This document shows, piece after piece, positions 26,709-43,004 of a stretch of DNA of 64,000 nucleotides. A model generated the notes under the pieces. The model was not told the DNA's origin, made no database searches, and saw only the letters and a list, made by a program, of their open reading frames with translations. Each line of letters starts with the position of its first letter. The stretch's first letter is position 1. A program made the translations under genes and the position numbers. This DNA is from Dyella sp. RRB7 (GTDB lineage: Bacteria > Pseudomonadota > Gammaproteobacteria > Xanthomonadales > Rhodanobacteraceae): positions 496,001 to 560,000 of the forward strand of contig NZ_JAKWJS010000001.1 of NCBI RefSeq assembly GCF_022761115.1. The letters run 5' to 3'.

Positions 26709-27665
26709 ATGACTATCGAAAGTGTCACCCGATCATCTTCCGTTCGAAATTTGATCTCGATCGACGAAATCCTGCATGCCAGGCCGCAGATGCCCATGAC
26801 AAGCACGCGCGGACGCGGCTGGAACGGCGTAACCGTCGATGTTCATCGCGCCTATTCCAAGGTGGGCGAAAGCTATGCCGGTCTGGACCACCACATGGTC
26901 CACTACTGCCCCTCCGGTAGCGCCAAGCTGACGCAGATCCGCGGTGGCGGCGTGCACAGCAGCCTGATCAAGGCCGGGCACACCATCATCATGCCAGCCG
27001 GCTACCCATCATCCTGGGAGGGAGACGTGGCTCCGTCCGCCCGACTGCGCGTCCCGACTTCGCTCATCGCAGCGGCCGCAGAGCAGCTGGGCCAGCATGT
27101 GGTTACCCAGGTGGAAATCCGCAATGTCTTTGAGGTTTTCGATCCGATCATTGGCCGACTCGTTCAGACCTTTATTGCAGAGATGGAATTGGAACCCCAC
27201 CCCTGCCAGATACTCATCGTCGATGCGCTCTCAACCGCCATCGCGGCTCACTTGATTCGACGCTACAACATCTTTGGCGTCGTCGAGGTGGAGCGCACCC
27301 GATCGCTCGGAAGATTGGAGATGACACGCCTGACGGCATTTGTCGAAGACAATCTGCACCGAAGCATAAGTCTTGATGAACTCGCCAATCTGGTGAATGT
27401 GAGTCGCTTTCACTTCTGCCGAATTTTCAAGCAGAGCACCGGAACAACCGCATTCAGTTTTGTGGAACAGTGCCGTATCCGCCGGGCTCAGGTGCTCATT
27501 ATCGAAACCAGCCTGTCACTGGCCGAAGTGTCGTTGATGGCCGGGTTCGCCGATCAAAGCCACTTCACGCGAAGGTTTCATTTCCACGTGGGATGCACGC
27601 CTGCGGCCTTCGCAAGAGAACACGGCCGACGCCGGTCGACCCGGCGGGAAACGCTCCCCAACTGA
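26709..27665 (+). CDS. AraC-family transcriptional regulator
   Basis: Regulator of 318 residues. The N-terminal cupin-like sensing part (from about residue 30, including HHMVHYCPSGSAKLTQIRGG) is followed by two helix-turn-helix motifs near the C terminus (ISLDELANLVNVSRFHFCRI and LAEVSLMAGFADQSHFTRRF). The ATG has GGGGAAA upstream. It is divergent from the alcohol dehydrogenase remnant and formate dehydrogenase genes, which it may control. The inducer is unknown; AraC proteins of this form often respond to aromatic or small organic compounds. Confidence 0.88.
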   Translation: MTIESVTRSSSVRNLISIDEILHARPQMPMTSTRGRGWNGVTVDVHRAYSKVGESYAGLDHHMVHYCPSGSAKLTQIRGGGVHSSLIKAGHTIIMPAGYPSSWEGDVAPSARLRVPTSLIAAAAEQLGQHVVTQVEIRNVFEVFDPIIGRLVQTFIAEMELEPHPCQILIVDALSTAIAAHLIRRYNIFGVVEVERTRSLGRLEMTRLTAFVEDNLHRSISLDELANLVNVSRFHFCRIFKQSTGTTAFSFVEQCRIRRAQVLIIETSLSLAEVSLMAGFADQSHFTRRFHFHVGCTPAAFAREHGRRRSTRRETLPN

Positions 27666-28018
27666 GCTGCCCGCCAAACGATCGATGGCGCCATGAAGCA
27701 GGAATCAGGCAGCCCCATGTTTCGCCGTTCCAGGGTTGCACAGCAGCGGCGTGATGGTGCAGCGCTCGCAACAGAAATCCAGTAAGCGCAAGAAATATCA
27801 ATCGACAACCATGAATGGCGGATAGGATGTCCGCCCAGTCGCATGTCGATTGGGCAAGCGGGCATAGGCTTCTATGCATCTCTTAGGCCCCATCGCCCAG
27901 TTGCTTTGGTGAACTTAAGTCACAGGACGAGACGGCGTTTCAGGGCCGCCGCAAAGACTTGCCTTTCTTCCAGAGGCTCTTCGCCGCGCCTTCAACCACG
28001 AATGTGGGGTGCGAGACG
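27666..28018. other. 353-bp region between the AraC gene and the IS3 remnant
   Basis: No gene is supported. The right part, directly before the IS3-type orfA, probably includes the insertion-sequence left end, but no terminal inverted repeat could be paired because the other end is missing. Confidence 0.4.
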
Positions 28019-28285: not shown

Positions 28286-28536
28286 TCGATCGCATGAGTG
28301 GATATAAAGACCAAGAAAGCCTGCATCCAGGACATTGGTTTTGAGAAGCAATGGCGGTCAATGGCACGCAAGAAACCGCAATCGTTACCGCGCCACGCGA
28401 TTTCGGTGCCGCGCACGATCCAGCGGGCCCGGGCCAAGCGAGTCAGCCTCTACAGGCTGCGTGCATTACTATCCGGCCGTGATGACAAGATTGTCGAGCT
28501 GACGGCAACCAACGTGTTTCATCGAGGTTACATCTC

Positions 28537-29280
28537 ATGCGCGTAGCACTGTTCGTTCCCTGCTATATCGATGCCTTCGAGCCCGAGGTCGGCATCGCCA
28601 CGCTGAAGCTGTTGCGCCGTTTTGGCATCGACCCCGAGTATCCGTTCGATCAGACGTGCTGCGGCCAGCCCATGGTCAATGCCGGCTGTCACAACGAGGC
28701 GAAAGCGACCGAGGAGCTTTTCGTGCGCAACTTCGCCGGCTTCGACTATATCGTCGTGCCCTCGGGAAGCTGCACGCACCAGATACGCTGCCACATGACC
28801 GCCATCGACCAGACCGAAGAGGTCCGGCAGGTGCGCGAGCGGACCTTTGAACTGGTCGAGTTTCTGCACGACGTGCTGAAGGTCGATGGGTTCCCCTGGG
28901 CCGAATTTCCGCACAAGGTCAGCTACCACAACAACTGCAACGCGTTGCGCGGCATTTTCCATGGCAGCATGTCCGAACGGCGGGAGCCGCCCTATTCCAA
29001 GCCACTCAACCTGTTGCGGATGGTGAAGGGGCTGGAACTGGTGGAGAAGGCGCGACCGGACGAGTGCTGCGGTTTCGGCGGAACCTTCAGCGTGTTCGAG
29101 CCGGCCGTCTCGGTGAAGATGGGACAGGACAAGGTCCGCGACCATGCATCGGCGGGTGCCGAGTACGTGGTGTCGGCGGACAGCTCCTGCATGCTCCACC
29201 AGCAAGGTTGTGCCGATCGCCTCGGGTTGCCACTCAAGTTCCGGCACATCGCCCAGGTGCTGAACGGAGATCGCGCATGA
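28537..29280 (+). CDS. lutA: L-lactate oxidation protein LutA (Fe-S, CCG domains)
   Basis: Subunit of the LutABC (LldEFG) iron-sulfur complex that oxidises L-lactate to pyruvate in the cytoplasm. The 247-residue protein has two cysteine-rich CCG domains: the first around FVPCYIDAF, DQTCCGQPM and PSGSCTHQIR, the second around YHNNCNALRG, DECCGFGGTF and SADSSCMLHQ. The length is normal. The ATG has a GAGG site upstream and the stop overlaps the lutB start (ATGA). No lactate permease or LldR regulator is in view; the TPR-LuxR gene after lutC could be a regulator. Confidence 0.93.
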   Translation: MRVALFVPCYIDAFEPEVGIATLKLLRRFGIDPEYPFDQTCCGQPMVNAGCHNEAKATEELFVRNFAGFDYIVVPSGSCTHQIRCHMTAIDQTEEVRQVRERTFELVEFLHDVLKVDGFPWAEFPHKVSYHNNCNALRGIFHGSMSERREPPYSKPLNLLRMVKGLELVEKARPDECCGFGGTFSVFEPAVSVKMGQDKVRDHASAGAEYVVSADSSCMLHQQGCADRLGLPLKFRHIAQVLNGDRA

Positions 29281-30857
29281 AAGAGTCACACGAACAGCGC
29301 CGTGCCAAGGACGGCCTGCCGGCGTTGCTTCACGAGGCGCTAGGGACCCCGGACGATGGCGGCGCGAAGAGTGGGAGCGGGGAGCGCCTGACCCATGGCG
29401 AGGCGACATCGCGGCCGCTTCAGCCGCCACCGCCGGAGCGTCAGCCTCGCGGCGCAAAGGTACACCACCGTCGACCGGTCGATCACAACGAAGCAGCGCA
29501 GCGCTTTATAGACGCGCCGCGACACGAAAAGATGCACGACGAGCGCCTTTGGGATCTTCGCCAGAAGCGCGACCGGCAGATGCACGGCATTCCCGAATGG
29601 GAAACGCTTCGTGAGCTGGCTTCGTCCATCAAGCAGCACACGCTCGCCCACCTTGGCGACCATCTTGAACGATTCGAGGCACAGGCATCGGCCAATGGAA
29701 TCCACGTGCACTGGGCGCAGGACGGTGCTGAACATAACCGAATCGTGCATGGCATCCTGTCCGACCACGGTGCCAGACGACTGATCAAGTCGAAGTCGAT
29801 GCTGACCGAAGAAACCGGTTTCAGGCACTACATGCAAGGCGTCGGCATTGAAGTGATCGAAACGGATCTGGGCGAGCGTATCCAACAGCTGGACGACGAA
29901 GCGCCAAGCCATATCGTTGTTCCCGCCGTGCACAAGCTGCGCAGCGACGTCGCCGAGGTCTTCGCCAGAACCCTGGGTACCGACCCCAACAACGACGACG
30001 TCCACTATCTCGCCGAGCAACAGCGCGAGAAGACACGCCCATTGATTCTCGGCGCGGACGCGGGAATGACGGGCGCCAATTTTGCCGTCGCGGAAACCGG
30101 CACCTTCGTCGTCTGCACCAACGAAGGCAACGCCGACCTGTCGGCCAACGTGCCGCCGCTACACATTGCCTCGATCGGCATCGAAAAGCTCATTCCGCGA
30201 ATCGCCGATCTTGGCGTCTTCATTCGCCTGCTTTCGCGTTCGGCGCTCGGCTCGCCGATCACGCAATATACCTCGCACTTTCGTGGGCCACGCCATGGCG
30301 GCGAGATGCATGTCGTGCTGGTCGACAACGGCCGTTCCGCCCGCCTTGGAGAGGTCGATTTCTGGGAAAGCCTGAAGTGCATCCGATGCGGCGCCTGCAT
30401 GAATACCTGCCCGGTCTACCGGCGCTCGGGCGGCCTTTCCTACGGCGCAACCTATTCGGGGCCGATCGGGCTTATCCTCGATCCGACCTTCGACCGCCGG
30501 CGCTATTCGTCGCTTCCGTTTGCCTCGACCCTCAACGGCTCATGCACGAATGTCTGTCCGGTAAAGATCGACATCCACAAGCAGATCTTTGCCTGGCGCA
30601 AGGCCCTGGCCGAAACTCACGACATCGGCCTGGGCAAGCAGGCGTTGATGAAGGCCGCTGGTGCCGTCCTGTCTCACCCCAAGCTCTATCGTGCCGCCAT
30701 AGCGACCGCAGACGGCGCACTGAAGGTTCTGCCGGACTTCGCGGTCACCAACCGCCTCAATACCTGGACACAGGGCCGCGATATGCCCGAACCGCCGCGC
30801 GAGACTTTTCACCAATGGTATGAACGCACTCATGGCGGCGAGGAGGGAGCACAATGA
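29277..30857 (+). CDS. lutB: L-lactate oxidation iron-sulfur protein LutB
   Basis: Central LutB/LldF subunit with 526 residues. The DUF162/LUD domain (from about residue 80) includes LIKSKSMLTEETGFRHYM and ADAGMTGANFAVAETGTFV. A ferredoxin-like twin 4Fe-4S region follows (CIRCGACMNTCPVYRR and SCTNVCPVKIDIH) and then a C-terminal helical tail. It overlaps lutA and lutC by 4 bases each. The first 75 or so residues are a charged, Pro-rich extension (PLQPPPPERQPRGAKVHHR) not usual in LutB; the typical start resembles the later AAQRFIDAPRHEKMHDERLW. The start at 29277 is kept because of the ATGA coupling. Confidence 0.92.
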   Translation: MKESHEQRRAKDGLPALLHEALGTPDDGGAKSGSGERLTHGEATSRPLQPPPPERQPRGAKVHHRRPVDHNEAAQRFIDAPRHEKMHDERLWDLRQKRDRQMHGIPEWETLRELASSIKQHTLAHLGDHLERFEAQASANGIHVHWAQDGAEHNRIVHGILSDHGARRLIKSKSMLTEETGFRHYMQGVGIEVIETDLGERIQQLDDEAPSHIVVPAVHKLRSDVAEVFARTLGTDPNNDDVHYLAEQQREKTRPLILGADAGMTGANFAVAETGTFVVCTNEGNADLSANVPPLHIASIGIEKLIPRIADLGVFIRLLSRSALGSPITQYTSHFRGPRHGGEMHVVLVDNGRSARLGEVDFWESLKCIRCGACMNTCPVYRRSGGLSYGATYSGPIGLILDPTFDRRRYSSLPFASTLNGSCTNVCPVKIDIHKQIFAWRKALAETHDIGLGKQALMKAAGAVLSHPKLYRAAIATADGALKVLPDFAVTNRLNTWTQGRDMPEPPRETFHQWYERTHGGEEGAQ

Positions 30858-31426
30858 ATGCGCGCGACACGATCCTCCAAAGGATTCGCGAGAACCAGCC
30901 CGCCGGTGCATACCCGCTGCCGGATCTGCCGAGCTTTCCGTTCGACGACGGCGGTGACCTTGTAGCTTGCTTTCTCAGGAACCTTGTCGCCATGGGCGGG
31001 CATTACTATGACGGCACGATCAACGCCGCCATGGCCGAACTTTTTCCAGACGCCGCCGTGATCGCGTCGACGGTTCCCGATTTTTCGGGTAACCGCGCCA
31101 TAACTTCCGGCACCGAAGCCGGGCAACTGGCGGATGTGGATGTCGGGATCACACGGGCCTCGGTTGGCGTGGCAGAAACCGGTTCCGTCCTGCTGGTTGA
31201 TGAAAACCTAATCTCGAATGCCGTGGCCTATCTCGCACAGCATTTGATCGTGCTTCTCGATCGAGCCAGCATCGTCACGACGCTTCAGGATGCCTATCGC
31301 CGTCCGGAATTCCACCAATACCGTTATGCAAGCTTTCACACCGGACCATCGGCCACCGCCGACATCGAAGGCGTCCTCATACATGGCGCCCAGGGCGTAC
31401 GGTCACTCACTGTGTTGCTGACCTGA
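30854..31426 (+). CDS. lutC: L-lactate oxidation protein LutC
   Basis: LutC/LldG subunit (LUD domain) of 190 residues, the third component needed for lactate oxidation. The conserved segments TVPDFSGNRAI, GITRASVGVAETGSVLLVDE and HTGPSATADIEGVLIHGAQG (the last is the family signature) are all present. The start overlaps the lutB stop. It ends the lut operon; a 680-bp region without genes follows. Confidence 0.93.
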   Translation: MNARDTILQRIRENQPAGAYPLPDLPSFPFDDGGDLVACFLRNLVAMGGHYYDGTINAAMAELFPDAAVIASTVPDFSGNRAITSGTEAGQLADVDVGITRASVGVAETGSVLLVDENLISNAVAYLAQHLIVLLDRASIVTTLQDAYRRPEFHQYRYASFHTGPSATADIEGVLIHGAQGVRSLTVLLT

Positions 31427-32105
31427 GTTCCTTATCGAGGTCGGCATGACTTGGATGCACCGAGTGATTCCTCAGTCGCATCCATGACTGAATCCAGCCC
31501 AATCCCGGCAAGGCAGGCGCGCCGCGACCGTCGCGCCTTCCACGGGCACGATACTGGCCAAGGATAAGGTCATCGCCGGTTCTTCGCCAAATCCGACGCA
31601 AACGCCGCTTCATGTCACATGTGATGTGCGGAACATCGGCCAGCCATGAACGCTCGCCCGACGTGGCGCGGGATCGGCACCCGAGCTGAGCAGACAGTTA
31701 TAGCGTGGTCTTTCGGATGCGTTGCCGCAAAAAGAGCAACAAGGTTCTTTTGACCGCAAAACCTTTCAATCGATTCCCGCCCATACGGTTCAGCATAGCC
31801 AATATCACGGGACGGCATCCCTTGCCGGAACCATCGCCGTGAAACGTGAGGACAGTGCACCTGGGCTGAGGGGATCATCCAATGCCGTTGTCTTGCAGTT
31901 CGCTTCGGATCCGCTTTGCGAGCGCCGATGACGACGCAGCCAGTGAAGCATGCCGTCCTCCCTCGCTGCAAATCGATCCGACCAAGCATATGGCCTTCGG
32001 CACGAGAAGCGTACTGGCTCATCGTTCTTGCTCGCGCCCAATCACACGCCATGACACCTGGAAGCCAACCCTTATGCCGTCGAAAGCGCTTCAGCAGGTG
32101 ACGGC
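31427..32105. other. 679-bp region between lutC and the LuxR-type gene
   Basis: No gene is supported; overlapping ORFs on both strands lack recognisable sequence. A perfect 10-bp palindrome TCACATGTGA is at 31615-31624. No rho-independent terminator with a U-tract was found after lutC. Confidence 0.5.
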
Positions 32106-33659
32106 ATGAATGCGCGACCGCAGGTGGTCGCGGCGCTACGGGCCAAGCCCATGCATGCCATGACGGATTGCAAAGCCGCGCCAGCCTTTCATCTGGATGG
32201 CGTACCGCTGGCGCCGCTCCTGACCGAGGCGCTCCAGGAAGCCTGGCACGCTATCGACCGGGGAATAAGGCCAGCCATTCAGGCGGCAACAGCCCGCGCC
32301 CTGGCGCTCGGGGCAAGGATGGCGCACTGCACCAGCGCGAACGCACTTGAGGAACTCGACGCCATTGCGGCCATCGCCGCAACGTGGGGTGACGATGCGA
32401 CGCATGCGACGCTCCAGGCGCAGGCCGTTCTCCGTCGAAGCCCATCCACGCGCATCCAAGCCGAACTTATCCGAACGTTGAAGATCGGTTACTGGCGGTC
32501 GCGGGATTTCGAGTCGCTCTATCGACTCTACGCAGCGCATCGGACACCGACCCAACTTTCCGAGGCATCTACCGAAGCAGGCCATCTGTCGATCGATGCC
32601 GCCATCGAGGCGGATCAGCTGCGCTTGAAGTCGGCCGAGCGCCTGGCAAAGGCCGCGCTGGCTCTTTGCGAGGCTTCGGTCGCGTGTAAAAGCCCCATCT
32701 CGTCGCTTTCACGCTGCCTGCTTGCCCATATCGCCTATGAAGTAGGTGACGTGGCACAAGCCGACGCCATGCTCCGCGGCCAGCTTTCATTGATCGAGCA
32801 ATCGGGGTCCATCGAGAGTGCTCTTTTCGCCTTCGATACCTCCGCCAACATTGCGTTCGCCGGAGGCAATGACAGTCTCGCATTCTCGATTTTGCGGCAG
32901 GCCGAACTGACCGGCAAAAGACTGGGCTGGAAACGCCTGGCATTGCAGTCGGCCAGCCACCAAGCCACGCTGCACATCTATCAGGATCGTCTTGACCTGG
33001 CGGAAGACGCGATGTTCAGGTGCAGGGACATCGTCTCTTCGCCCGACCATGGGATCAATGGCGTCGCCGACACATGGCCCTTCACGATCGCCATGCTCCA
33101 CTTCAAGCTGGCAACGAAGGACGCTTCTTTACACGTCAGCTCCGAACTCGAGCATCACATTCAGCGATCCGTGGCGCAGCGCCACCCCGCGGTGGAAATC
33201 CGACTAAGGCAGATGCTGGCGTGCGCGCTGAATCGTGCCGGACGGCCGGCCGAGGCGGATGTCGAGCTAGTCAACGCTCTTCACAGGGGATGCGAGGCCG
33301 GCCTGTACAGAAGCTTTGTCGATCACCTGCCGATGATCGAGGAGCATTTGCAGCGCCTGCACAAAAGATCGATTGACGGCAGCCTGCATCATCTATCCGC
33401 CTATATCGATTCGCTGCTGCCGGAGCCGGCAGTCACCAGGATCACCAGGGAAGTCGTCCGCCTGCCCATCGTGTTGAGCAAGAAGGAAACGGCCGTCCTT
33501 CACCTCATACGCCTGGGGTTATCCAACAAGAGCATTGCCCGGGAAATGCACGTGGCTCCGGAGACCGTCAAGTCCCACGTCAAAAGGGTGTTCATAAAGC
33601 TCGCATCAAGGACGCGGGCCGAGGCCGTGTCCAGGGCGCAGGACCTGGGGTTCATATAG
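32106..33659 (+). CDS. LuxR-family regulator with MalT-like helical repeats
   Basis: Protein of 517 residues. Most of it is helical, TPR/MalT-like repeats (residues about 100-430, for example ISSLSRCLLAHIAYEVGDVA and SALFAFDTSANIAFAGGN). A C-terminal LuxR helix-turn-helix follows (LSKKETAVLHLIRLGLSNKS, IAREMHVAPETVKSHVKRVF). It lacks the N-terminal ATPase of full MalT/AlkS proteins, so it resembles their C-terminal half. It lies between lutC and the bufferin precursor gene, in the same direction, and could control either. The signal is unknown. Confidence 0.85.
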   Translation: MNARPQVVAALRAKPMHAMTDCKAAPAFHLDGVPLAPLLTEALQEAWHAIDRGIRPAIQAATARALALGARMAHCTSANALEELDAIAAIAATWGDDATHATLQAQAVLRRSPSTRIQAELIRTLKIGYWRSRDFESLYRLYAAHRTPTQLSEASTEAGHLSIDAAIEADQLRLKSAERLAKAALALCEASVACKSPISSLSRCLLAHIAYEVGDVAQADAMLRGQLSLIEQSGSIESALFAFDTSANIAFAGGNDSLAFSILRQAELTGKRLGWKRLALQSASHQATLHIYQDRLDLAEDAMFRCRDIVSSPDHGINGVADTWPFTIAMLHFKLATKDASLHVSSELEHHIQRSVAQRHPAVEIRLRQMLACALNRAGRPAEADVELVNALHRGCEAGLYRSFVDHLPMIEEHLQRLHKRSIDGSLHHLSAYIDSLLPEPAVTRITREVVRLPIVLSKKETAVLHLIRLGLSNKSIAREMHVAPETVKSHVKRVFIKLASRTRAEAVSRAQDLGFI

Positions 33660-33964: not shown

Positions 33965-34297
33965 ATGTCGAACAATAAAATGACCGCTCTCGTCGCAGGC
34001 GCCCTTGCCACCCTCATCAGCGGCATGGCCTCCACGACTGTCAGCGCCCAGGACTTCACTCCGGCGCAGAAAAAGATCCAGGCTGAGCATACGGCGCTGG
34101 TGAAGTCCGGCAAGGTCGAACCCTGCTTCGGCACCGCGCTCAAGGGGCAGAACGACTGCTATGCCGGCGCAGGCACCACCTGCGCAGGTACCAGCACGGC
34201 CGACTACCAGGGCAATTCGTTCAAGCTCGTGCCGAAGGGCACCTGCGAGTCGATCAAGACCCCGAACGGCAATGGCAGCCTGAAGCCCAAGGTCTGA
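33965..34297 (+). CDS. bufA: Bufferin precursor BufA (DUF2282), copper-binding RiPP
   Basis: Secreted precursor peptide of 110 residues, DUF2282 family. A Sec signal peptide (cleavage after STTVSA, about residue 28) is followed by a core with four cysteines at 54, 65, 73 and 94, the pattern of type-1 bufferins. In characterised bufferins the MNIO enzyme converts core cysteines to thiooxazoles that bind copper, protecting the periplasm. The ATG has AAGGAG at good spacing. The genes for the enzyme, partner and a DoxX protein follow, after a strong hairpin and a MAPEG gene. Modification state cannot be seen from DNA. Confidence 0.88.
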
Positions 34298-34302
34298 CCT
34301 CT

Positions 34303-34339
34303 TTGCAAAGCCGGGCGGCGCTGTCGCTCGGCTTTGCAA
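34303..34339 (+). terminator. Strong hairpin (attenuator or terminator) after bufA
   Basis: TTGCAAAGCCGGGCG (34303-34317) pairs with CGCTCGGCTTTGCAA (34325-34339) over 15 bp with one G-U pair and a 7-base loop, and is followed by TTTCC. It lies 5 bases after the bufA stop and before the remaining operon genes. It would make the precursor mRNA more abundant than the downstream genes, as in many RiPP operons. Confidence 0.75.
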
Positions 34340-34382
34340 TTTCCAGCGTCCATCTTCCCACCGTCTTTGTACAACAGCCCCT

Positions 34383-34793
34383 ATGACATCACCATTTGAG
34401 CTCAAAGTGCTTACCTACGTTGCACTTGCAACGGCATTGATGTGGTTGCCGTACACCCTTGCGCTGATCGTGAACGGCGGGCTGGCGGTGACGATGGGCA
34501 ACCGCGATCGTCCTCTGCCGCCGCTGCCCCTGTGGGCCCAGCGCGCCAAACGAGCCCATGCGAACGCTATAGAGAACCTAGTCGTCTTCGCACCACTCAC
34601 CTTGGTTGCATCCATGGTGCACGTCAGCGCGCCGCTGCTTGCATGGACGACCATGCTGTATCTGTTGGCGCGCGTTGCCCATTACATCATCTACGCTGCC
34701 GGCATCCCTGTTGTTCGGACGCTGCTGTTCTTCACGGGATGGATAGCCACCTTGGTGATTGGCGCGTCCATTCTCTCCACGCTGTCCCAGTGA
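34383..34793 (+). CDS. MAPEG-family membrane protein
   Basis: Membrane protein of 136 residues with four predicted helices and the MAPEG pattern (RAKRAHANAIENLVVFAPLTL; LLYLLARVAHYIIYAAGIP in near form). Eukaryotic MAPEG proteins are glutathione-dependent transferases; bacterial ones are mostly uncharacterised. It lies between the bufA hairpin and bufB, inside the bufferin locus, and ends 28 bases before the bufB start. A thiol-related role is only an inference. Confidence 0.82.
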   Translation: MTSPFELKVLTYVALATALMWLPYTLALIVNGGLAVTMGNRDRPLPPLPLWAQRAKRAHANAIENLVVFAPLTLVASMVHVSAPLLAWTTMLYLLARVAHYIIYAAGIPVVRTLLFFTGWIATLVIGASILSTLSQ

Positions 34794-34821
34794 ACACGAC
34801 CTATCCATTCCGGGCCACGAA

Positions 34822-35712
34822 GTGAAGACTTTCAACGATCAATCCAGCCATGGCAGCATCGCGCCCGCGCGACCGAAGAGCCTGCCTTCACTCAAAGCCG
34901 GCGTGGGGCTAAAGCCCGAGCACTATCGGGCCATCCTCGACCAACATCCGGCTGTTGGATTCTTTGAGATTCATGCGGAAAACTACATGGGCGATGGTGG
35001 ACCTCCCCACCGCTATCTCACGGCGATCCGCGAGATGTACCCCATCTCCATTCACGGGGTAGGTTTGTCCATCGGCTCAAGCGGCCCTCTCAGCGAAGCG
35101 CACCTGCTACGCCTCAAGGTACTCATTGAACGCTACGAGCCGGCGATGTTCTCGGAACACCTCGCCTGGTCGACGCACCCGTCCGGATACCTGAACGACC
35201 TCCTGCCGATCCCTTACACCAAGGAAGCGCTACGGCGGGTCGTCGAACATATCGATACGGCCCAGGCGTTCCTGGGACGCAGGCTATTGCTGGAGAACCC
35301 CTCCACCTATGTCCAGTTCGCGGAGAGTTCCTACAGCGAGCCCGACTTCATCAACGAGATCGTCCGGCGAACAGGGTGTGGCCTGCTGCTGGACGTCAAC
35401 AACATCTATGTTTCAGCCAATAACCATGGCTTCGACCCCTATGCCTATGTCGACCAGATCAACCATCTGGCCGTCGGAGAGATTCACCTTGCCGGCCACA
35501 CCCGGGAACTCGACACGGACGGTTCGCCCTTGCTGATAGACACTCACGACCGATACGTCGACGACGCGGTCTGGTCGCTCTACGCGCACGCGATCCGCAG
35601 CATAGGGGGCGTCTCCACCATGATCGAGTGGGATGCGAATATCCCCGACCTTCCCGTTCTGCTGGCCGAGTCCGACCTGGCCAACGCAGTTTCGCTGGCT
35701 GCGACCGGATGA
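34822..35712 (+). CDS. bufB: Bufferin-modifying MNIO enzyme BufB (DUF692)
   Basis: Multinuclear non-heme iron oxygenase of 296 residues (DUF692), a TIM-barrel enzyme that modifies precursor cysteines using iron and O2. Candidate metal ligands are in the conserved strands: EIHAENYM (His51), SIHGVGLSIG (His78/79), SEHLAWS (Glu112, His113), LLENPSTYV (Glu158), LLLDVNNIYVS (Asp191, Asn193), EIHLAGH (His222) and MIEWDANIP (Glu269). A GTG start at 34822 fits best although its ribosome site is weak; the frame is open back to 34759. The substrate is most likely the BufA protein encoded upstream. Confidence 0.9.
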   Translation: MKTFNDQSSHGSIAPARPKSLPSLKAGVGLKPEHYRAILDQHPAVGFFEIHAENYMGDGGPPHRYLTAIREMYPISIHGVGLSIGSSGPLSEAHLLRLKVLIERYEPAMFSEHLAWSTHPSGYLNDLLPIPYTKEALRRVVEHIDTAQAFLGRRLLLENPSTYVQFAESSYSEPDFINEIVRRTGCGLLLDVNNIYVSANNHGFDPYAYVDQINHLAVGEIHLAGHTRELDTDGSPLLIDTHDRYVDDAVWSLYAHAIRSIGGVSTMIEWDANIPDLPVLLAESDLANAVSLAATG

Positions 35713-35766
35713 CGTCCATGGCGCTTACCAACGTTCTTTGGCGAAAAAACATGCAGGGGTCTATCC

Positions 35767-36747
35767 ATGTCTGAGCGGCGCGTTGTCTTGTATTTCTCCT
35801 GGAGTCGCCCCGAAGAGATCGCGGCGCCGCTCACCGTCATCGACAACCGCTTTCCGGCGCTATTCGAAAGCCGGCGCATGCTCTACCCGCGATACGAGGC
35901 ATTTTCGCGAGTCGACCAGTTCGACCAGGGCATCGGCGGTTTCCTCGACCACATCCAGAAACCCAATTTTACGGCCTTCACCCAATTCGCCGAGGACATC
36001 ACCAAGCATCCGGCGCCGGCCATCGAGCGCATGGGTGACGATGGCGTGGTGCGGGAGATCAACGACGCACTTTTGCGTGATGTGGATACGCTCATCATCA
36101 TCAGCCTGGACTCCCTACGTACCCGCCAGATGCCGACCTCGGACGAAGTGGAAGCGATCAGGCGCTTTCTCTCCCATCCGGATCATGTCCTGTTTGTCTG
36201 CCCTCATCACGACATCGGTGATGTGAACGGACTTCCTGAGGACAAGCACCAGCCTCGCCAGGAGCAGGAGTTCTACCACCATGGCGACAGGACCATTCCG
36301 CCCCAGCAGCGATTCGGCGGCTTTGCCCGCTCCCTGCTTGCGGAACTCGATGTGCCGGTGGAAAACCAGTTTGGCCTTCATCCTCGGCTCGATGCGTCCG
36401 GTGCGCCGTGGCCATTCCACGCCGAGCACGCCCTGGACCGATGGCAACTGCTGCGCCAGGTGGAGGCTTTCAACGCCCATCCGCATCTGCCGCATCTCGC
36501 GCGGCTTGGAGCGGCGGTTTCCAAGCTGGAGGTACTGGTTCGCCAGCAAGTCGACCCCAACGCTCCGCCTCACCCGTTTAACCAGACCGGCCTGAAGGAA
36601 TTCGATGCCCTTCTACAGTCAACGCCGGGCACGTTCGAGGGCACGCTGCTGGTGAGCGATGCCACGCTATGGAGTTCGACGGCCGGAGGTGTCCAGCAGT
36701 TGGAGACCTTCTGGTCGAATGTCCTGCAACGCTCCGCCGCGAACTGA
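35767..36747 (+). CDS. Unrecognised 326-residue protein inside the bufferin locus
   Basis: I do not recognise the family. The protein is soluble, with no signal peptide or membrane helix. The first 190 residues alternate helices and hydrophobic strands (DVDTLIIISLDSLRTRQMPT, FLSHPDHVLFVCPHHDIGDV), which resembles a class-I glutamine-amidotransferase or ThuA-like Rossmann fold, without clear catalytic residues. It is rich in histidine (PHHDIG, KHQPRQEQEFYHHGD, HPHLPHLARL), so metal binding is possible. It lies 54 bases after bufB and 12 before bufC, in the same direction. Coding is supported by the spacing, the GGGG ribosome site and the gene layout. Confidence 0.75.
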   Translation: MSERRVVLYFSWSRPEEIAAPLTVIDNRFPALFESRRMLYPRYEAFSRVDQFDQGIGGFLDHIQKPNFTAFTQFAEDITKHPAPAIERMGDDGVVREINDALLRDVDTLIIISLDSLRTRQMPTSDEVEAIRRFLSHPDHVLFVCPHHDIGDVNGLPEDKHQPRQEQEFYHHGDRTIPPQQRFGGFARSLLAELDVPVENQFGLHPRLDASGAPWPFHAEHALDRWQLLRQVEAFNAHPHLPHLARLGAAVSKLEVLVRQQVDPNAPPHPFNQTGLKEFDALLQSTPGTFEGTLLVSDATLWSSTAGGVQQLETFWSNVLQRSAAN

Positions 36748-36759
36748 TCGAGCACCGTC

Positions 36760-37581
36760 ATGCCCTTTCCCCAACCACGCACCTTCCATGGGCGCCAACT
36801 GGTGTTTGGCCAGGCGCTTCTCGACGCCAGCCGGCCGATACCGGACGGCGTCATCGGACCCGACGGAAGGCCGAGTGTGCGGCGCTTCAATGTCTACCGG
36901 AACAATGTCGTGGCGGGACAGGTTTCCACCCTTTGCGATGCATATCCGGCCACGGTCAAATTGGTTGGCGAAGAATTCTTCCACGCCATGGCGCGCGACT
37001 ATGTCGTCACGCACTCGCCGATCAGCCCCATGATGTTCGACTATGGCTCGGACTTTCCGGACTTCATCGATGCGTTCCCGCCGGCATCCGGGCTGCCCTA
37101 CCTTGGCGATGTGGCGCGTATCGAACGGGCCTGGGTGGAAGCCTATCACTCGGCTGAATCCCTGCCGCTTTCCGCCAGCTGCCTGAAAGACATACTCGCG
37201 AACGACCTGCGTTTCCTGAGCCTGCAACTGCACCCTTCCACGCGCATCCTGCAATCCAGGTTTCCGGCGCTTTCGATCTGGCGGATGAACACCGAGTCGA
37301 ACGAAGGGCAGACCATCCACCTGGATGATGGCCCCGAGGAAGTCCTTGTCGTTCGCCCGGATGCGGATGTCCATGTCTACCCGTTGCCCAAAGGCGGCGC
37401 CAGGTTTTTCAAGGCCTTGTTGCAGGGAGCTTCGATGGTGGATGCCGCCGACCAGGCTTTCGAGAGCGACGATCCATTCGACCTCGTCGCCCATATGGCC
37501 ATGCTCTTTGAAGCGCAATTGGTGGTAGGCACTCGCACCACCCAGGACAACCCTCATTCATCCGGTGTGCAACATGGCTAA
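36760..37581 (+). CDS. bufC: Bufferin partner protein BufC (DUF2063)
   Basis: Partner of the MNIO enzyme, 273 residues. The N-terminal DUF2063 domain has the family pattern (RRFNVYRNNVVAGQVSTLCD, AYPATVKLVGEEFFHAMARD, YLGDVARIERAWVEAYHS), and the C-terminal part resembles a RiPP-recognition-like domain. In known systems it brings the precursor peptide to BufB. It starts 12 bases after the unrecognised protein gene and overlaps the DoxX gene by 8 bases, so cotranscription is near certain. Confidence 0.88.
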   Translation: MPFPQPRTFHGRQLVFGQALLDASRPIPDGVIGPDGRPSVRRFNVYRNNVVAGQVSTLCDAYPATVKLVGEEFFHAMARDYVVTHSPISPMMFDYGSDFPDFIDAFPPASGLPYLGDVARIERAWVEAYHSAESLPLSASCLKDILANDLRFLSLQLHPSTRILQSRFPALSIWRMNTESNEGQTIHLDDGPEEVLVVRPDADVHVYPLPKGGARFFKALLQGASMVDAADQAFESDDPFDLVAHMAMLFEAQLVVGTRTTQDNPHSSGVQHG

Positions 37582-38080
37582 GCTTTCATCGCAACGCAAC
37601 ATGGGAACACTCTTTGATCGAGTGCAGGACGGCATCGCGAAAATCGGCATGGCCCTGGGGCCTATCGCCGCTCGCATCGCGCTCGCATTGCCGTTCTTTC
37701 GCTCCGGCCTGACGCGGTGGGATGGCTTCCTGTCCATCTCGCCAGGAACGACCTACCTGTTCGAAGACGCCTTCAAGCTGCATATCTTCGGCAACCTCTA
37801 CGGTTTTCCGGCACCCGACCAGTTGGCCTACGTTGTCGGCTCGGCGGAGATCATCCTTCCCTTGTTGCTGCTTGTGGGACTGGCCACCCGTTTTGCCGCC
37901 TTGGGCCTGCTCCTGATGACGGCAGTCATCCAATTGGTGTTTCCCGATGCCTGGGCGAATTTTCACCTGTACTGGGGCTCCCTCGCGCTGACTCTCATGG
38001 CCTTGGGAGCCGGGCCGCTGTCGCTGGACCATGGCATTGAATTGCTTCGGCAACGTCGCCGCGCCACCGCGATGCGGTGA
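37574..38080 (+). CDS. DoxX-family protein of the bufferin locus
   Basis: Membrane protein of 168 residues with four helices, including PIAARIALALPFFRSGLTRWDG (split here over residues about 30-51) and the segment YVVGSAEIILPLLLLVGLATR. DoxX proteins regularly end bufferin-type operons (for example gigD in Caulobacter), where they may take part in redox steps. The ATG at 37574 overlaps the bufC stop by 8 bases. No terminator was found in the 284 bp that follow, which hold a tandem GAAAGCTTC repeat and no gene. Confidence 0.85.
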   Translation: MAKLSSQRNMGTLFDRVQDGIAKIGMALGPIAARIALALPFFRSGLTRWDGFLSISPGTTYLFEDAFKLHIFGNLYGFPAPDQLAYVVGSAEIILPLLLLVGLATRFAALGLLLMTAVIQLVFPDAWANFHLYWGSLALTLMALGAGPLSLDHGIELLRQRRRATAMR

Positions 38081-38364
38081 GAACCTCGCCCAGGGCAGGC
38101 GTTAACCAGCTGAAAGTAATCACCGACGCTTGAGCCAGAGCGCGCGTGCGCTTTGGTGGGCGAAGCCTTGTCTGAAAGCTTCACGGAAAGCTTCGACAAC
38201 GGCGTCGGGTTGCCCCATTAGGGGGATAGAGCAACACATCATCTGGCATCAAACTCGAAATGGGATCTGATGCACTTCATCGCGCGTCGCCGCCTAGGCG
38301 CACCCAGGCATCCACGCGCGCGGTAGCACCGCGTCCACACAAGCTCAATAGAAAGGTTCTTTGG

Positions 38365-38652
38365 ATGCTTTCATTTCGACAGTTCCGGGCCGTCCCGCTG
38401 GGACAAGCCGTGCTCCTCGCAGTGTCGAGCGGCGCGCTGACGGCATGCAACGCATCGCCGTCACAGAACCTATTGGGCTCTTATTTTCCCACCTGGATGC
38501 TGTGCGCCATTCTGGGCGGCATCGGCACTGCCCTGATACGGCTGGTCCTTGCCAAGACCGGCATCGACGCCGTGCTGCCCGTCCCCGTGCTGGTTTATCT
38601 GAGTTGCTGGATCGCGGTGACGCTGGCCATTTGGCTCGTGTGGTTGGGCTGA
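38365..38652 (+). CDS. ytcA: YtcA-like small lipoprotein
   Basis: Membrane lipoprotein of 95 residues. A signal segment ends in the lipobox LTAC (Cys about residue 29), followed by two helices (WMLCAILGGIGTALIRLVL and VLVYLSCWIAVTLAIWLVW). The same order ytcA-mdtN-mdtO-mdtP occurs in E. coli. The ATG has AAAGG upstream; the frame is open back to 38260 without support. It is 15 bases before the mdtN-like gene. Its role in the pump is not known. Confidence 0.8.
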   Translation: MLSFRQFRAVPLGQAVLLAVSSGALTACNASPSQNLLGSYFPTWMLCAILGGIGTALIRLVLAKTGIDAVLPVPVLVYLSCWIAVTLAIWLVWLG

Positions 38653-38667: not shown

Positions 38668-39693
38668 ATGAAGGTGAATAGCACCACGGGTCGTCTTGTC
38701 GCCGCCATCGCGATGGTCGCTGCCGTCGCGCTTATCGTCGCGGCGGTGATCGTGGTTGACCGGCGCCCAAGGACCCACGATGCCTACATCTACGCCTATA
38801 GCGCCGGCATCACTCCGGAGGTGAGCGGACGCATTGTTTTTATCGGCATCCGAAATGACCAGGTGGTCCACAAGGGCGACATTCTCCTGAAGATCGATCC
38901 GGAAGTCTTCTCGCTGCAGCTGCGGCAGGCCAATGCCCAGGTGGCGGCGCTGCAGGCCCAGATCGAGCTGACAAGCCGCCAGGTCACCGCCCAGGGGTCC
39001 GGGGCCGAAGCCGCCGCGCACCAGGTTGAGCGCGCCCGCCAGCAGCTGTCGCTGGCCCGGGACACGCGCGAACGCCTGGAGCCTCTTCATGGCAAGGGCT
39101 TTGTAACCACCCAGCAGATCGACCAGGCCCGAACCGACGAACGCTCGGCCGAGGCCCAACTGGCCGCCGCCATCCAGCAGGCCTCGCAGGCCAAGGAGGC
39201 GATCGGGGATGTCGAGAGCCTGAAGGCGCAGCTTGTTGGGGCCGAGGCCGCTCAAGCGCTGGCTGCACGTAATCTGCGCGAGGCCACCATTGTCGCGCCG
39301 GTGGACGGACGGATCGTCGGCCTCAACCTTGCCCTCGGCTCCTTTGCCACGGCAGGGCATCCGCTGTTCACCATCATCGATGACAACAATTGGTACGCGA
39401 TTGCCAACTTCCGCGAGACGGACCTGGCGCATCTGCGCGCCGGTGCTCACGCCACCGTCTGGCTCATGGGGCAAGAGGGTCATCCGCTGGAAGGCGTGGT
39501 TGAGAGTCTGGGTGCCGGCGTGCAGCCCCAGGGTGCCGTCGGGCCCGGGTTGCCACAAGTCGATCGAAACCTGAATTGGGTGGTGGTGGCCCAGCGGTTC
39601 CCGGTTTGGGTGCATCTGGATAACGGCGCGACACCATTCCTGCGCATCGGCGCCACCGCTTCTGTACGGGTGCGCCATGGCCATGCCGACTGA
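38668..39693 (+). CDS. mdtN: MdtN-like HlyD membrane-fusion protein
   Basis: Periplasmic adaptor of a tripartite efflux system, 341 residues. One N-terminal transmembrane anchor (LVAAIAMVAAVALIVAAVIV) is followed by a biotinyl-lipoyl half (AGITPEVSGRIVFIGIRNDQ), a long coiled-coil hairpin (residues about 85-205) and the second lipoyl half (IVAPVDGRIVGLNLALGSFA). A beta-barrel domain follows. It connects the inner-membrane MdtO-like protein to the MdtP-like outer-membrane channel. It overlaps the next gene by 17 bases. Confidence 0.9.
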   Translation: MKVNSTTGRLVAAIAMVAAVALIVAAVIVVDRRPRTHDAYIYAYSAGITPEVSGRIVFIGIRNDQVVHKGDILLKIDPEVFSLQLRQANAQVAALQAQIELTSRQVTAQGSGAEAAAHQVERARQQLSLARDTRERLEPLHGKGFVTTQQIDQARTDERSAEAQLAAAIQQASQAKEAIGDVESLKAQLVGAEAAQALAARNLREATIVAPVDGRIVGLNLALGSFATAGHPLFTIIDDNNWYAIANFRETDLAHLRAGAHATVWLMGQEGHPLEGVVESLGAGVQPQGAVGPGLPQVDRNLNWVVVAQRFPVWVHLDNGATPFLRIGATASVRVRHGHAD

Positions 39694-41614
39694 TCGTGTT
39701 GCACGGGACGCGCTTTCGTCCCTGCTCCATCGGGAACTTGTGCTGGATCCGGCCAGATACCGCTCCATCGCGCGCATTTCGGTAGGTACGGCCATGGTCG
39801 TGGCCATCGCCATGACGTTCCAGATTCCCCTGCCCGCCTATATGGCTTACCTGGTGTTCCTGGTCAGCCAGGAAGATACAGCGTCTACACTGGTGACCTC
39901 GGTCGGCGGCCTGCTGGCCGCCACGTTGGCGGTGGCCCTTTCCATTCTGCTGTACGTCTTCGACGCGTCGGAACCCGCGCTGCGCATTCCCCTGCTGGCG
40001 CTCAGCACGTTTGCCGGCGTGTTTCTGGCGCGGACCAGTGCCTTGGGGCCGGTGGCATTCCTCGCCAGCTATGTGCTGGTTCTGTCGCAGACCCTGGCGG
40101 ACGACATTCCCGCCACCGATCCACTGACCCATGGCCTGCTATGGCTATGGGTGGTGGTTGCCGTTCCCGTAGGCGTCACGGTGCTGCTGAATCTGCTGTT
40201 CGGCGAAAGCCCTGTTGCGCTTTCGCGCAGGCGCGCAAGCCATTTGTTCCATCGCCTGGCTTGCTTTGTTGAGAGCCCTGCCGCTGAAGACCCTAGCAAG
40301 CTGCGCGATGAGCTGCTCGCCATCAGCGAGCTAAAGAACAAGGCGTTCCTTTGGGACAAACGCCTGCAGGCCTATGCGCAGGAAGACAACCACCTGGTGG
40401 CACTGCTGCTGGAGATCCTGTCGATCGCGCGCACGCTGCCTGACGATGCGCCCCACGATGCCCGCGTGAGCCTTGCGGCCTCCATCCGCGAGGCGGGACG
40501 GCAGTTCCTGCGGCGTCGTTCACCTCACCACACGCTGCCATCGCAGGTGGCCGCGCCACGAGGTATGGACTTCAAGCATCCGTCATGTGCCGCGCTGCAA
40601 CTCGCCGTGCAAGAACTGCAACAGGCGGCGTCCGGGCACCATGCCGAGCCACCCGAACCGGCGCGGCGATCGGCGCGGTCCTTCCTGGTACCGGATGCTT
40701 TTGAGAATCGCGCCCATGCCCGATTCGCGATCAAGGTGATGCTTGCGGTACTGGCCTCCTATGCCACCTATACGCTGCTCGACTGGCCAGGCACGCGCAC
40801 TGCCGTAACCACCTGCTTCTTTGTGTCGCTGACCACTTTTGGCGAGAGCGTTCACAAGTTCACGCTACGCGCGACCGGCGCCATCATCGGTGGGCTACTG
40901 GCCGGCCTAAGCATCGTCTTCCTGTTGCCCCTGTTCACGGACATCGGCCAGCTTTGCCTGTTGATAGCCGCCGTGTCGGCCTTCTGCGCATGGATATCCA
41001 CCAGCAGCGAGGCGATCTCCTACGCCGGCATGCAAACCGCATTCGCCTTCTTTCTCGGCATCCTTCAAGGCTACGGCCCGGCCAGTGACCTGACCGTCCT
41101 GCGCGACCGCGTGGTCGGCATCTTGATCGGCAACATCTGGGTCACTGTGGTATTCGCCTGCCTGTGGCCATCGAGTGCCTTCGACCAGGCGCGCTCCCTG
41201 CGCACCGGCGTGCTCAACAAGCTTGGACAGTTGCTGGTGAAGCGGGGGAGCCAGCCTTTGTCGCCGGCGCACCTGTCGGTTGACCAGGATCTCTCGCATG
41301 CAGCGCTGCTTACCGATCGCGCCGCGTTCGAGTGGCGACGGAAAGGTTCGAACCTGGGGGAGACCGCTTATGCGGACTTTGTCGAGCGGGCGACGTCGCG
41401 CATGTTCGCGCTTGTTCGCCTACGTGGCTCAAGTGATCCGGCCGTGCCTGCCAACGCCGTGGACCAACATATCTCCGCGCAACTGATCGCCCTTTCCAAG
41501 GGCGAGACTCCCGGTCCCCCGACAGTCGATCCCGAACCCACTGAAGCCCCGGTGCTATGGCAGGCACGTCATGACCTTGAAGAGGAAGTTTCCCATGCCC
41601 CTCGCCCGAACTGA
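39677..41614 (+). CDS. mdtO: MdtO-like FUSC-family inner-membrane exporter
   Basis: Fusaric-acid-resistance (FUSC) family transport protein of 645 residues. Two membrane halves of about six helices (residues about 35-165 and 350-500) flank a cytoplasmic domain, ending in a soluble tail. E. coli MdtNOP gives tolerance to sulfa drugs, acriflavine and similar compounds; aryl carboxylates are also typical FUSC substrates. The start may be at 39677 or 39683 (both ATG). It overlaps mdtN and mdtP, indicating coupled translation. Confidence 0.9.
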   Translation: MAMPTDRVARDALSSLLHRELVLDPARYRSIARISVGTAMVVAIAMTFQIPLPAYMAYLVFLVSQEDTASTLVTSVGGLLAATLAVALSILLYVFDASEPALRIPLLALSTFAGVFLARTSALGPVAFLASYVLVLSQTLADDIPATDPLTHGLLWLWVVVAVPVGVTVLLNLLFGESPVALSRRRASHLFHRLACFVESPAAEDPSKLRDELLAISELKNKAFLWDKRLQAYAQEDNHLVALLLEILSIARTLPDDAPHDARVSLAASIREAGRQFLRRRSPHHTLPSQVAAPRGMDFKHPSCAALQLAVQELQQAASGHHAEPPEPARRSARSFLVPDAFENRAHARFAIKVMLAVLASYATYTLLDWPGTRTAVTTCFFVSLTTFGESVHKFTLRATGAIIGGLLAGLSIVFLLPLFTDIGQLCLLIAAVSAFCAWISTSSEAISYAGMQTAFAFFLGILQGYGPASDLTVLRDRVVGILIGNIWVTVVFACLWPSSAFDQARSLRTGVLNKLGQLLVKRGSQPLSPAHLSVDQDLSHAALLTDRAAFEWRRKGSNLGETAYADFVERATSRMFALVRLRGSSDPAVPANAVDQHISAQLIALSKGETPGPPTVDPEPTEAPVLWQARHDLEEEVSHAPRPN

Positions 41615-43004
41615 GGCTGGCCATACGGCCGGGCGGCGACTGGCGCTCGCGATCGTGCTTGGACTCGGAGTCAGCACGCCCCATGCGCAGACGGCGACGT
41701 GGGCCGCGTCCCCTGCCCAGGGCGGCAGCGTCATCGCGCAAAAGACCTATTCCCTGCCGGAACTCATCCAGCTTGCGCTGGCCATCAGCCCCAAGAATGC
41801 AGAGGTTCAACAGCAAGTGACGCAAGCCGACCTTGCCGGCGACCTGGTCAAGAGCAAGTACGCGCCCCAGGTCAGTCTCAAGGCGCTGGGCGGCATTGAG
41901 CACACGCCGTTGGCGATACCGCAAACGGTGTTGCCCCGGGGCTATTTCATTTCGTCGTCCCGCGAGATATTTCCCACCCTGGAACTCAAGTGGCTGTTGT
42001 TTGATTTCGGGCGGCGAAAGAGCCAGGTGGAGGAAGCCGCGCAAAACGCCAGGGCAGCGGACTTCGGCCTGACGGCCGAGCAAGACAGATTGATCTTTGA
42101 TGTCTCCAAAGCCTATTTCGATGCCACCTCATCGCAAGGGAAAGTCCGCGCCGCGGAAAAGGCGCTGCACGCGGCACGCTTGACGGAAGAGGCCGTGACG
42201 GATCAGCGCAGTCATGGCCGCGCAACCGTAGTGCAGGTCGCGCAAGCACATCGCCAGGCGGCGGCCGCGCAGCTTGCATTGACCAAGACCTCCGGTGATG
42301 CCGAAACCGCTTTTGCCACGCTCGTTGCGACCGTCGGCCTTCCTCCAGGTTCCCGCTTCGAACTGCTTTCTCCCAAGGACTCCGGCCTCGATGGGGAACA
42401 ATCCCTGCAGACACTGAATGCCCTTATCGACGAGGCGATGCAATCCCGTCCGGATATCCAGTCGGCCATGAGCAAGATCGCGGCGGCACAAGCGAAGCTG
42501 GACACCGCCCATGCGGCCTATCACCCCACCATCAGCATTCAGGCCCAGGTGCTCCAGAACATCGGCGAAACCAGCAGCGACGGCAGCCCCTATTCCTCCA
42601 TCAACCGCACAGGGGACAGCATCTTTGTGGCGTTCGAGCTGCCGCTGTTCGACGGCGGTAACCGTTCGACCAATGTGGCGCTTGCGGTCTCCCAGAAAAC
42701 CCAGGCCGAGGATGCCCTGGCCGCCACCCGCAATACGGTGGCCCAGCAAGTGGTGGAAAGCTACAACAACCTCAAGACTAGCCTTGATAACCGGCGAGAG
42801 GCCGTTGCGTATACCAAGGCGGCGGAACTCGCCTACCAGGCCTCGCTTGATTCGTATCGGCACGGATTGTCCAGCGTCACCGATCTGACCAATGATGAGG
42901 CCGCGTTGGCCCAGGCCGAGGCCAACCAGGAAGACGCCGACGCGAATGTGCTGGTAGCGCGCGCCGCGCTGGCGCTGGCCCTTGGGCGACGCACCGCCGA
43001 GTAA
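41571..43004 (+). CDS. mdtP: MdtP-like outer-membrane efflux protein (TolC family)
   Basis: TolC-type channel of 477 residues. A signal peptide (LALAIVLGLGVSTPHA) is followed by two outer-membrane-efflux repeats (LPELIQLALAISPKNAEVQQ and TLNALIDEAMQSRPDIQSAM as repeat starts). No lipobox is seen, unlike NodT proteins. It overlaps the mdtO stop by 44 bases and closes the operon. Together with MdtN and MdtO it should form a complete export path for small toxic molecules. Confidence 0.9.
   Translation: MTLKRKFPMPLARTEAGHTAGRRLALAIVLGLGVSTPHAQTATWAASPAQGGSVIAQKTYSLPELIQLALAISPKNAEVQQQVTQADLAGDLVKSKYAPQVSLKALGGIEHTPLAIPQTVLPRGYFISSSREIFPTLELKWLLFDFGRRKSQVEEAAQNARAADFGLTAEQDRLIFDVSKAYFDATSSQGKVRAAEKALHAARLTEEAVTDQRSHGRATVVQVAQAHRQAAAAQLALTKTSGDAETAFATLVATVGLPPGSRFELLSPKDSGLDGEQSLQTLNALIDEAMQSRPDIQSAMSKIAAAQAKLDTAHAAYHPTISIQAQVLQNIGETSSDGSPYSSINRTGDSIFVAFELPLFDGGNRSTNVALAVSQKTQAEDALAATRNTVAQQVVESYNNLKTSLDNRREAVAYTKAAELAYQASLDSYRHGLSSVTDLTNDEAALAQAEANQEDADANVLVARAALALALGRRTAE

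Follow-up and report, generated by a model that had tools for sequence, protein, structure and literature searches.

The Buf1 layout, as given in the available text of the bufferin survey of Antoine et al. 2025 (PMC12452194), comprises a DUF2282 precursor, the MNIO enzyme BufB, the DUF2063 protein BufC and a DoxX protein. Such clusters, known as gig-type operons, have recently been grouped as captophorins in a second paper (PMC13097082), according to whose accessible passages MNIO-PME1 clusters broadly install 5-thiooxazoles. The survey names a sigma factor and NrsF among the Buf1-associated genes, and its main text makes no mention of AraC, MAPEG, antiporter or efflux. It also describes unknown proteins, adjamnio-VI, that are encoded at the bufB-bufC position and are suggested by its authors to add a further modification to BufA; the available text gives neither a fold nor a regulator for them and mentions no lone copies. 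A literature search found the term adjamnio-VI in one paper. Here we analyse a bufferin operon of Dyella sp. RRB7 that lies in a stretch of 64,000 nucleotides (contig NZ_JAKWJS010000001.1, positions 496,001 to 560,000 of the forward strand; the whole stretch is called the window below) and encodes a protein of 326 amino acids, named X326, between bufB and bufC. X326 is a probable adjamnio-VI protein by gene place, since it lies, as these do in the survey text, between the MNIO gene and the PME-type 1 gene of a buf1 operon. The operon variant is thus partly known, and the present work adds to it a predicted fold, a phylogeny, lone copies, a candidate regulator and an operator-like repeat.

Six genes, all on the forward strand at positions 33965 to 38080 of the window, form the operon in the order bufA, MAPEG, bufB, X326, bufC and doxX, and their families identify it as a Buf1 bufferin operon. 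The bufA gene (33965..34297) encodes a Buf1 precursor of 110 amino acids with the DUF2282 domain (PF10048, 3e-22, 78.8 bits) and four Cys residues after a Sec-type signal peptide that was called by eye. It is followed by the gene of a MAPEG-family membrane protein of 136 amino acids (34383..34793; PF01124, 1.4e-21), which ends 28 bp 5' of bufB (34822..35712, GTG start), the MNIO maturase gene, whose product matches the NCBIfam BufB model NF050167 with 391 bits against a cut-off of 310. The X326 gene (35767..36747) precedes bufC (36760..37581; DUF2063, PF09836, 1.2e-21, 77.2 bits), whose reading frame overlaps that of doxX (37574..38080, ATG at 37574 with an alternative GTG at 37565; PF07681, 2.5e-15, 57.3 bits). 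By these genes the closest named relatives belong to Dyella. The preliminary description of this stretch had proposed a precursor with signal peptide and four Cys and a bufA-bufB-bufC-doxX layout of precursor, MNIO enzyme, partner and DoxX protein, interrupted by a MAPEG gene between bufA and bufB and by the gene of an unrecognised, His-rich protein of 326 residues between bufB and bufC, and the Pfam and NCBIfam matches bear it out in each of these points. X326 contains 16 His in its 326 residues and has no Pfam or NCBIfam family over cut-off and no PHROG match. The window thus shares with the Buf1 biosynthetic gene cluster the precursor, BufB, BufC and DoxX in the same order, and differs from it by X326, by MAPEG and by its linkage to an AraC gene and an operator-like repeat.

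A scan of species genomes, with search patterns taken from the window protein and therefore favouring its closer relatives, yielded 29 relatives of X326, 28 of them full length. L001 to L004, which are the window itself and places that recur as L005, L006 and L021, and a partial, broken copy (L033) were left out, and neighbouring genes in unannotated loci were called by crude scripts. X326 lies between bufB and bufC in 18 of the 28 full-length relatives, from Dyella, Luteibacter, Burkholderiaceae and Rhizobiaceae. In two more it stands 3' of doxX, directly in L020 and one gene further in L025, and in the remaining eight the stretch around the copy holds no buf gene. The protein is rare: among 397 other genomes sampled from the phylum a single one has it at E<=1e-20, and four of 20 genomes of a genus sample have it, as against 19 of 20 with BufB-like MNIOs. 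X326 adjoins 4 of the 27 BufB-like places in that sample. Because it is rare and yet stands inside the buf operon in 18 and downstream of it in two of 28 cases, chance is very unlikely to account for its placement. Purifying selection (ratio of nonsynonymous to synonymous substitution rates, dN/dS, of 0.10-0.16 in all eight pairs compared, dS being >1 for some of them) shows that X326 is a real gene.

The variant is also set apart by its maturase. Identity to the window BufB is 57-75% in the other 20 loci in which X326 and buf genes occur together (L023 being measured on its longer piece) and 43-57% in 40 control loci. These controls are 40 of 45 distinct BufB-like places away from X326, so that the absence of X326 from them is a matter of choice and not evidence. 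On a quick BufB tree, from which the frameshifted and unjoined L023 was left out, the 18 rows in which X326 separates bufB from bufC group in a single clade (SH-aLRT 93) that excludes all 40 control rows, and L020 and L025 form a separate pair. The X326 tree likewise places 20 in-operon rows in one clade (86/80), with one lone row, L017, nested inside; clade support on both trees is moderate. Dyella sedimenti (L021) falls with the Burkholderiaceae on both trees (SH-aLRT 89; 86/90), as after a joint transfer of bufB and X326. From these sequences X326 appears as a regular part of a rare bufferin operon variant. The preliminary description had supposed that both extra genes may define a variant, with conceivable roles in thiol supply, metal loading or export. 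That X326 marks a variant holds; for MAPEG, which is inside the operon in the window only of 21 loci, it is not supported. A side observation concerns the two loci with X326 3' of doxX: a catalase-family gene (L020, 2310-3284) lies directly 5' of bufA, and a related gene without Pfam match precedes bufA in L025.

The operons with X326 look like an AraC regulon, putatively controlled by the linked AraC-family regulator, whose gene in the window (26709..27665, +) is 7 kb from bufA. Within about 6 kb on either side, this AraC was found in 13 of 21 loci with X326 and buf genes, against 1 of 40 controls. Because the queries for AraC, antiporter, pump, molybdopterin enzyme and other markers were drawn from X326 loci, these loci also count themselves; they are moreover related, and the marker-gene counts given here and below should be read as leads, not as clean statistics. 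In the genus sample AraC (E<=1e-30) occurs in 4 of 20 genomes, the same four that have X326. A search of whole genomes (E<=1e-40) detected it in 19 of 20 buf-linked genomes and in 2 of 8 lone-copy genomes, one of the latter matches being partial and at a contig end. It lies at most 9 kb from bufB in 18 of the 20 buf-linked genomes; the exceptions are L015, a genome in small contigs, and L019, where AraC is on another contig and the operon near a contig end. For the Rhizobium loci the AraC genes were located about 8 kb away. Two Dyella genomes carry AraC, bufA, bufB, X326, bufC, doxX, antiporter, HlyD, FUSC and an outer-membrane channel in one row. C67, H61 and H62 in the N-terminal half of AraC are invariant in 15 rows. 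Sigma factor genes show no difference (5/21 loci against 9/40 controls). The literature search found no paper that joins AraC with NhaP and DUF692, the pairing of AraC with "bufferin" not being among the searches; AraC and DUF2063 meet in one paper (PMC8719888), of which the available passages on DUF2282/DUF692 clusters do not include AraC.

A candidate operator accompanies this regulator. The motif GCAAnAnCGTnCAATC was found in the 300 bp 5' of bufA from 12 loci, the window included, with a score of 224.6 against 161.3 +- 2.6 in eight block shuffles; L013 and L018 were kept out of the search as near-duplicates. All nine loci outside the search (L011, L015, L017, L019, L023, L025, L026, L027 and L030) carry a site of 13.2-22.8 bits at most 400 bp 5' of the first gene, which may be bufA, an ABM-family gene ahead of bufA or a lone X326. 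The site of L017 is identical to one training site, and that of the lone L027 is on the other strand. The Rhizobium loci, first meant as negatives for the motif, proved positive, four Rhizobium-type sites preceding the ABM-family gene ahead of bufA. The best site upstream of a control bufA reaches 9.5 bits (n=19); anywhere in the locus, 8 of 40 control loci have a hit of at least 13 bits, the best being 14.6. Mean identity, 0.70 in the site, drops to 0.40 and 0.29 in the two flanks, even though the left flank contains the other half-site, and the motif is therefore not a mere effect of relatedness.

GCAA stands exactly 20 bp 5' of the motif in 17 of 18 listed sites, which gives a composite direct repeat, GCAA-N16-RCAANANNNNNCAATM, of two half-sites 20 bp apart. 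Searched anywhere in the locus with at most one mismatch, this repeat is found in 19 of 20 loci with X326 and buf genes, in one of eight lone loci (L017) and in one of 40 controls; by origin, the former are 13 of the 14 loci of the defining list (L008 fails) and all six others (L010, L013, L018, L019, L023 and L030). The window holds five matches where 0.03 are expected, all of them close to AraC and the operon (26093 to 31771). Two have one mismatch, at 26093..26128 (-), 91 bp 5' of an alcohol dehydrogenase family gene, and at 26540..26575 (+), 134 bp 5' of AraC. The other three have none and lie on the forward strand at 27768..27803 between AraC and lutA, at 28348..28383, 154 bp 5' of lutA, and at 31736..31771, 335 bp 5' of the LuxR-type gene that precedes bufA. 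A right half of 17.2 bits (44681..44696, +) is found 96 bp 5' of an antiporter gene. The exact short form of the right half occurs nine times in 8 of 20 genomes, seven times at the island and never in the genome of the window; read backwards as a control, it has no occurrence.

The structure of X326 was predicted with AlphaFold2 on 29 sequences (pLDDT 85, pTM 0.88, residues 30-47 weak). The top Foldseek ranks for the model are the ThuA-like 1t0b (E 2.5e-4) and the IFT52 GIFT domain 5fmr (E 2.8e-4), followed by other glutamine amidotransferase-like (GATase-like) folds, and on this model we are confident in predicting a GATase-like fold, nearest to ThuA-like and IFT52 GIFT proteins. The core strand-helix-strand is weakly matched by the DUF4350 profile as well. 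X326 differs from the ThuA-like and GIFT proteins (IFT52, DUF4350) in that their Pfam profiles do not match it and in having its own set of invariant His/Asp motifs. Membership in the ThuA family (PF06283) is rejected for want of a Pfam match at E<=1 and by an hhalign probability of 0.6%; the ThuA profile has no match in the four X326 genomes of the genus sample. DUF4350 (PF14258) is rejected likewise, with no Pfam match at E<=1 and with an hhalign E of 0.0015 at a probability of 17%; genome G000 has three DUF4350 matches, all away from X326. Class I glutamine amidotransferases are defined by an invariant nucleophile Cys. The sole Cys of the window protein, C145, is Ala or Gly in relatives from Nostoc and Streptomyces, and X326 is not such an enzyme. 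Ferrochelatases rank weakly in Foldseek (E >=0.13, probability <0.2), and a chelatase-like X326 was rejected too. The X326 profile has four matches among the sequences of solved structures, none meaningful (best E 0.27).

H147, H148, H171, H172, H238 and H240 of X326 are invariant in 29 of 29 aligned rows. In a wider set of 17 sequences, which takes in relatives from Nostoc, Streptomyces and R. leguminosarum at 37-47% identity, PHHDxG, HHxD, FNxHxHLP and DxT are invariant and C145 is not. These motifs point to X326 as a putative metal-binding protein rather than a Cys-nucleophile amidotransferase.

The neighbours of the eight lone copies vary and include glutamine synthetase (L012), ribonucleotide reductase (L017), a zinc-type dehydrogenase (L028) and others. 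BufB-like MNIOs (E<=1e-20) were not detected in four of the eight lone-copy genomes, DUF2282 was not detected in five, and both were undetected in three (G464, G475 and G479), absences that are less sure in that several of these genomes are draft or metagenome assemblies. Paraburkholderia monticola (L017, genome G464) has X326 with a perfect repeat and AraC, no BufB at E<=1e-20 and no DUF2282 match; its X326 has a dN/dS of 0.11-0.14 in two pairs. As this X326 is nested in the in-operon clade, the tree suggests that the lineage lost its buf genes and kept X326. That the gene is intact here, with repeat and AraC, where neither BufB nor DUF2282 was detected, speaks against an X326 that acts on BufA only. 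Among more distant relatives, plasmids of Nostoc and Streptomyces (L034, L035 and L038, around 7000-11300) carry a conserved protein of about 180 residues, a DyP-type peroxidase and an X326 relative. On the R. leguminosarum plasmid pSK02 (L036, 2400-6951) an X326 relative comes right after a pyridoxal-dependent decarboxylase gene, with genes of an M4 metallopeptidase and emfourin further upstream.

Next to the window operon, four genes follow on the forward strand, which encode a YtcA-family protein (38350..38652), an HlyD-type adaptor (38668..39693), an MdtO-like FUSC-type permease (39677..41614; 272.7 bits, under the MdtO family cut-off of 821) and a TolC-type outer-membrane channel (41571..43004), and which we take to be a ytcA-mdtNOP group encoding a tripartite pump. 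A CPA1 Na+/H+ antiporter gene (TIGR00831) lies at 44777..46429 (+). Genes of these families accompany X326 elsewhere: near the 21 loci with X326 and buf genes and the 40 controls, respectively, CPA1 antiporters were counted at 9 and 3, HlyD at 8 and 2, FUSC at 6 and 0, and molybdopterin oxidoreductases at 5 and 0. The window pump differs from other YtcA-MdtNOP-type pumps in adjoining a bufferin operon, and in two other genomes such genes are preceded by the operator-like repeat. The one-mismatch repeat of Dyella sedimenti (L021) lies ahead of two units on opposite strands, MAPEG-YtcA-HlyD and the antiporter, with FUSC and channel following in the genome; a further one-mismatch repeat at 8781 on the minus strand has no assigned gene. 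In Paraburkholderia sp. BCC1885 (L190, 600-1600, -) a second exact site lies ahead of an operon that begins with a second bufA and continues with YtcA and HlyD. Pump and bufferin thus seem to share control in these two genomes.

A relative of the window MAPEG (E<=1e-15) occurs in 2 of 28 other X326 genomes, one 61% and one 40% identical, the former being the first gene of a pump operon that adjoins the buf operon; MAPEG genes of lower identity (29-36%) occur in the other genomes of the genus sample. Most likely, to judge from these places, the window MAPEG originally belonged to a pump operon and came to lie between bufA and bufB in this lineage. As the defining gene of the variant it is rejected, being inside the operon in 1 of 21 loci only. 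It would be a working part of the bufferin pathway, in thiol or glutathione supply, if its place between bufA and bufB, 28 bp before the latter, were taken at face value; we hold this to be very improbable in view of that single locus and because the 61% identical MAPEG, present in one of the 28 other X326 genomes, opens a pump operon there. That both extra genes are chance insertions unrelated to bufferin is scarcely credible: it fits MAPEG taken alone, and is contradicted for X326 by its place, which recurs in distant genomes, its clades, the regulator and the operator.

On balance, at slightly better than even chances, we favour a Buf1 subtype, apparently moved horizontally, with X326 as a regular fifth gene between bufB and bufC, control by a dedicated AraC and the repeat, and X326 acting in parallel to bufferin. 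This reading is based on sequence, namely on gene order, rarity, the joint inheritance of X326 with one BufB clade, the AraC linkage, the repeat, the predicted fold and the His/Asp set. AraC would sense a compound and, by binding to the direct repeat, set the transcription of bufferin, X326 and, according to lineage, pump, antiporter and oxidoreductases. BufB and BufC would convert Cys residues of BufA into copper-binding thiooxazoles, by analogy with studied bufferins, and X326 may be a metal-dependent hydrolase- or transferase-type enzyme on a small molecule of the same stress, acting beside bufferin and, by lineage, beside an MdtNOP-like pump and a Na+/H+ antiporter. X326, whose activity is putative, probably works beside bufferin and not on bufferin alone, because copies of the repeat also stand ahead of a MAPEG/pump operon, of a bufA-pump operon and of the lone X326 of P. 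monticola. Several points weigh against this reading. Within the in-operon clade most X326 copies have bufferin genes next to them, a pattern that would fit a role in maturation as well, and the loci are related by descent and not independent; P. monticola, which carries most of the argument from loss, is one draft genome. The composite repeat was written from 18 sites spanning 14 of the 20 loci, is missing from L008 and is reduced in the lone L027 to a right half on the other strand, as the antiporter site at 44681 is without a left half. The window bufA has no site in its 300 bp upstream (best 9.1 bits); the nearest is 2.2 kb upstream, ahead of the LuxR-type gene, so that its control would need read-through. 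This AraC is absent from 6 of 8 lone-copy genomes, which makes the wider X326 family independent of it, and X326 reaches modest TM-scores with its best-matching folds (0.38-0.40, by query).

The alternative that X326 is a tailoring enzyme adding a further modification to BufA, as suggested for adjamnio-VI in the available text of PMC12452194, is clearly less probable but deserves attention. It would explain the regular place between bufB and bufC, the joint inheritance with one BufB clade and the enzyme-like predicted fold with its invariant His/Asp set, and it is hard to reconcile with the three of eight lone-copy genomes (G464, G475 and G479) that have X326 without detected BufB and DUF2282 and with the plasmids of Nostoc and Streptomyces, on which a relative adjoins a DyP-type peroxidase gene. 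DyP peroxidase and ribonucleotide reductase are metal-containing enzymes. Their presence, as metalloenzyme families, among the lone-copy neighbours, together with the invariant His-rich motifs PHHDxG, HHxD and FNxHxHLP, would suit a helper in metal handling, one that supplies BufB with iron or BufA with copper, a role we regard as quite unlikely since those neighbours are very mixed and 23 of the 27 BufB-like places of the genus sample do not adjoin X326. A wider reading is speculative and rather doubtful: the island may be a mobile regulon against the combined threat of an aromatic or other electrophilic compound and copper, with X326 degrading the compound. AraC would then sense the compound, the MdtNOP-like pump expel it and MAPEG and oxidoreductases detoxify it, while the antiporter would restore pH and bufferin would bind copper that would otherwise redox-cycle with the compound; X326 would be a new enzyme family on a GATase-like fold that breaks the compound down. 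This detoxification sense of the island rests on its gene families.

Other genes of the island lie on both sides of AraC. A LuxR-type regulator with a TPR region (32106..33659, +) stands between the operator-like repeat and bufA, and is preceded by genes for a LutA-like protein with CCG domains (28537..29280, +), a LutB-like protein (29277..30857, +) and a LutC-like protein with a LUD domain (30854..31426, +). A transposase gene (HTH_Tnp_1, 28019-28282, +) is found between AraC and lutA, and similar genes occur near the island in L007 and L021. On the minus strand, the gene of a zinc-type alcohol dehydrogenase family protein (TIGR02817, 25172..26002) seems to miss its C-terminal end, the match stopping at profile position 250 of 336, and an NAD-dependent formate dehydrogenase gene (NF005750, 667 bits; 23709-24998) lies beside the AraC island. 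Between pump and antiporter, an N-terminal piece of cytochrome o oxidase subunit I (43801-44289, -; profile 1-109 of 646) adjoins a subunit IV gene (43153-43539, -), and the two look like a decayed oxidase operon. No RNA families at gathering score and no tRNAs were found in the 64-kb window.

Bufferins have so far been treated as copper-response peptides with a four-gene core. The extra gene, its own AraC and operator-like repeat and the ties to efflux suggest that some bufferins respond to a different signal and act as members of a team. The operator offers a direct route to the inducing signal and to the full gene set, and X326, a conserved family without a Pfam or NCBIfam model, now has a putative role that can be tested.

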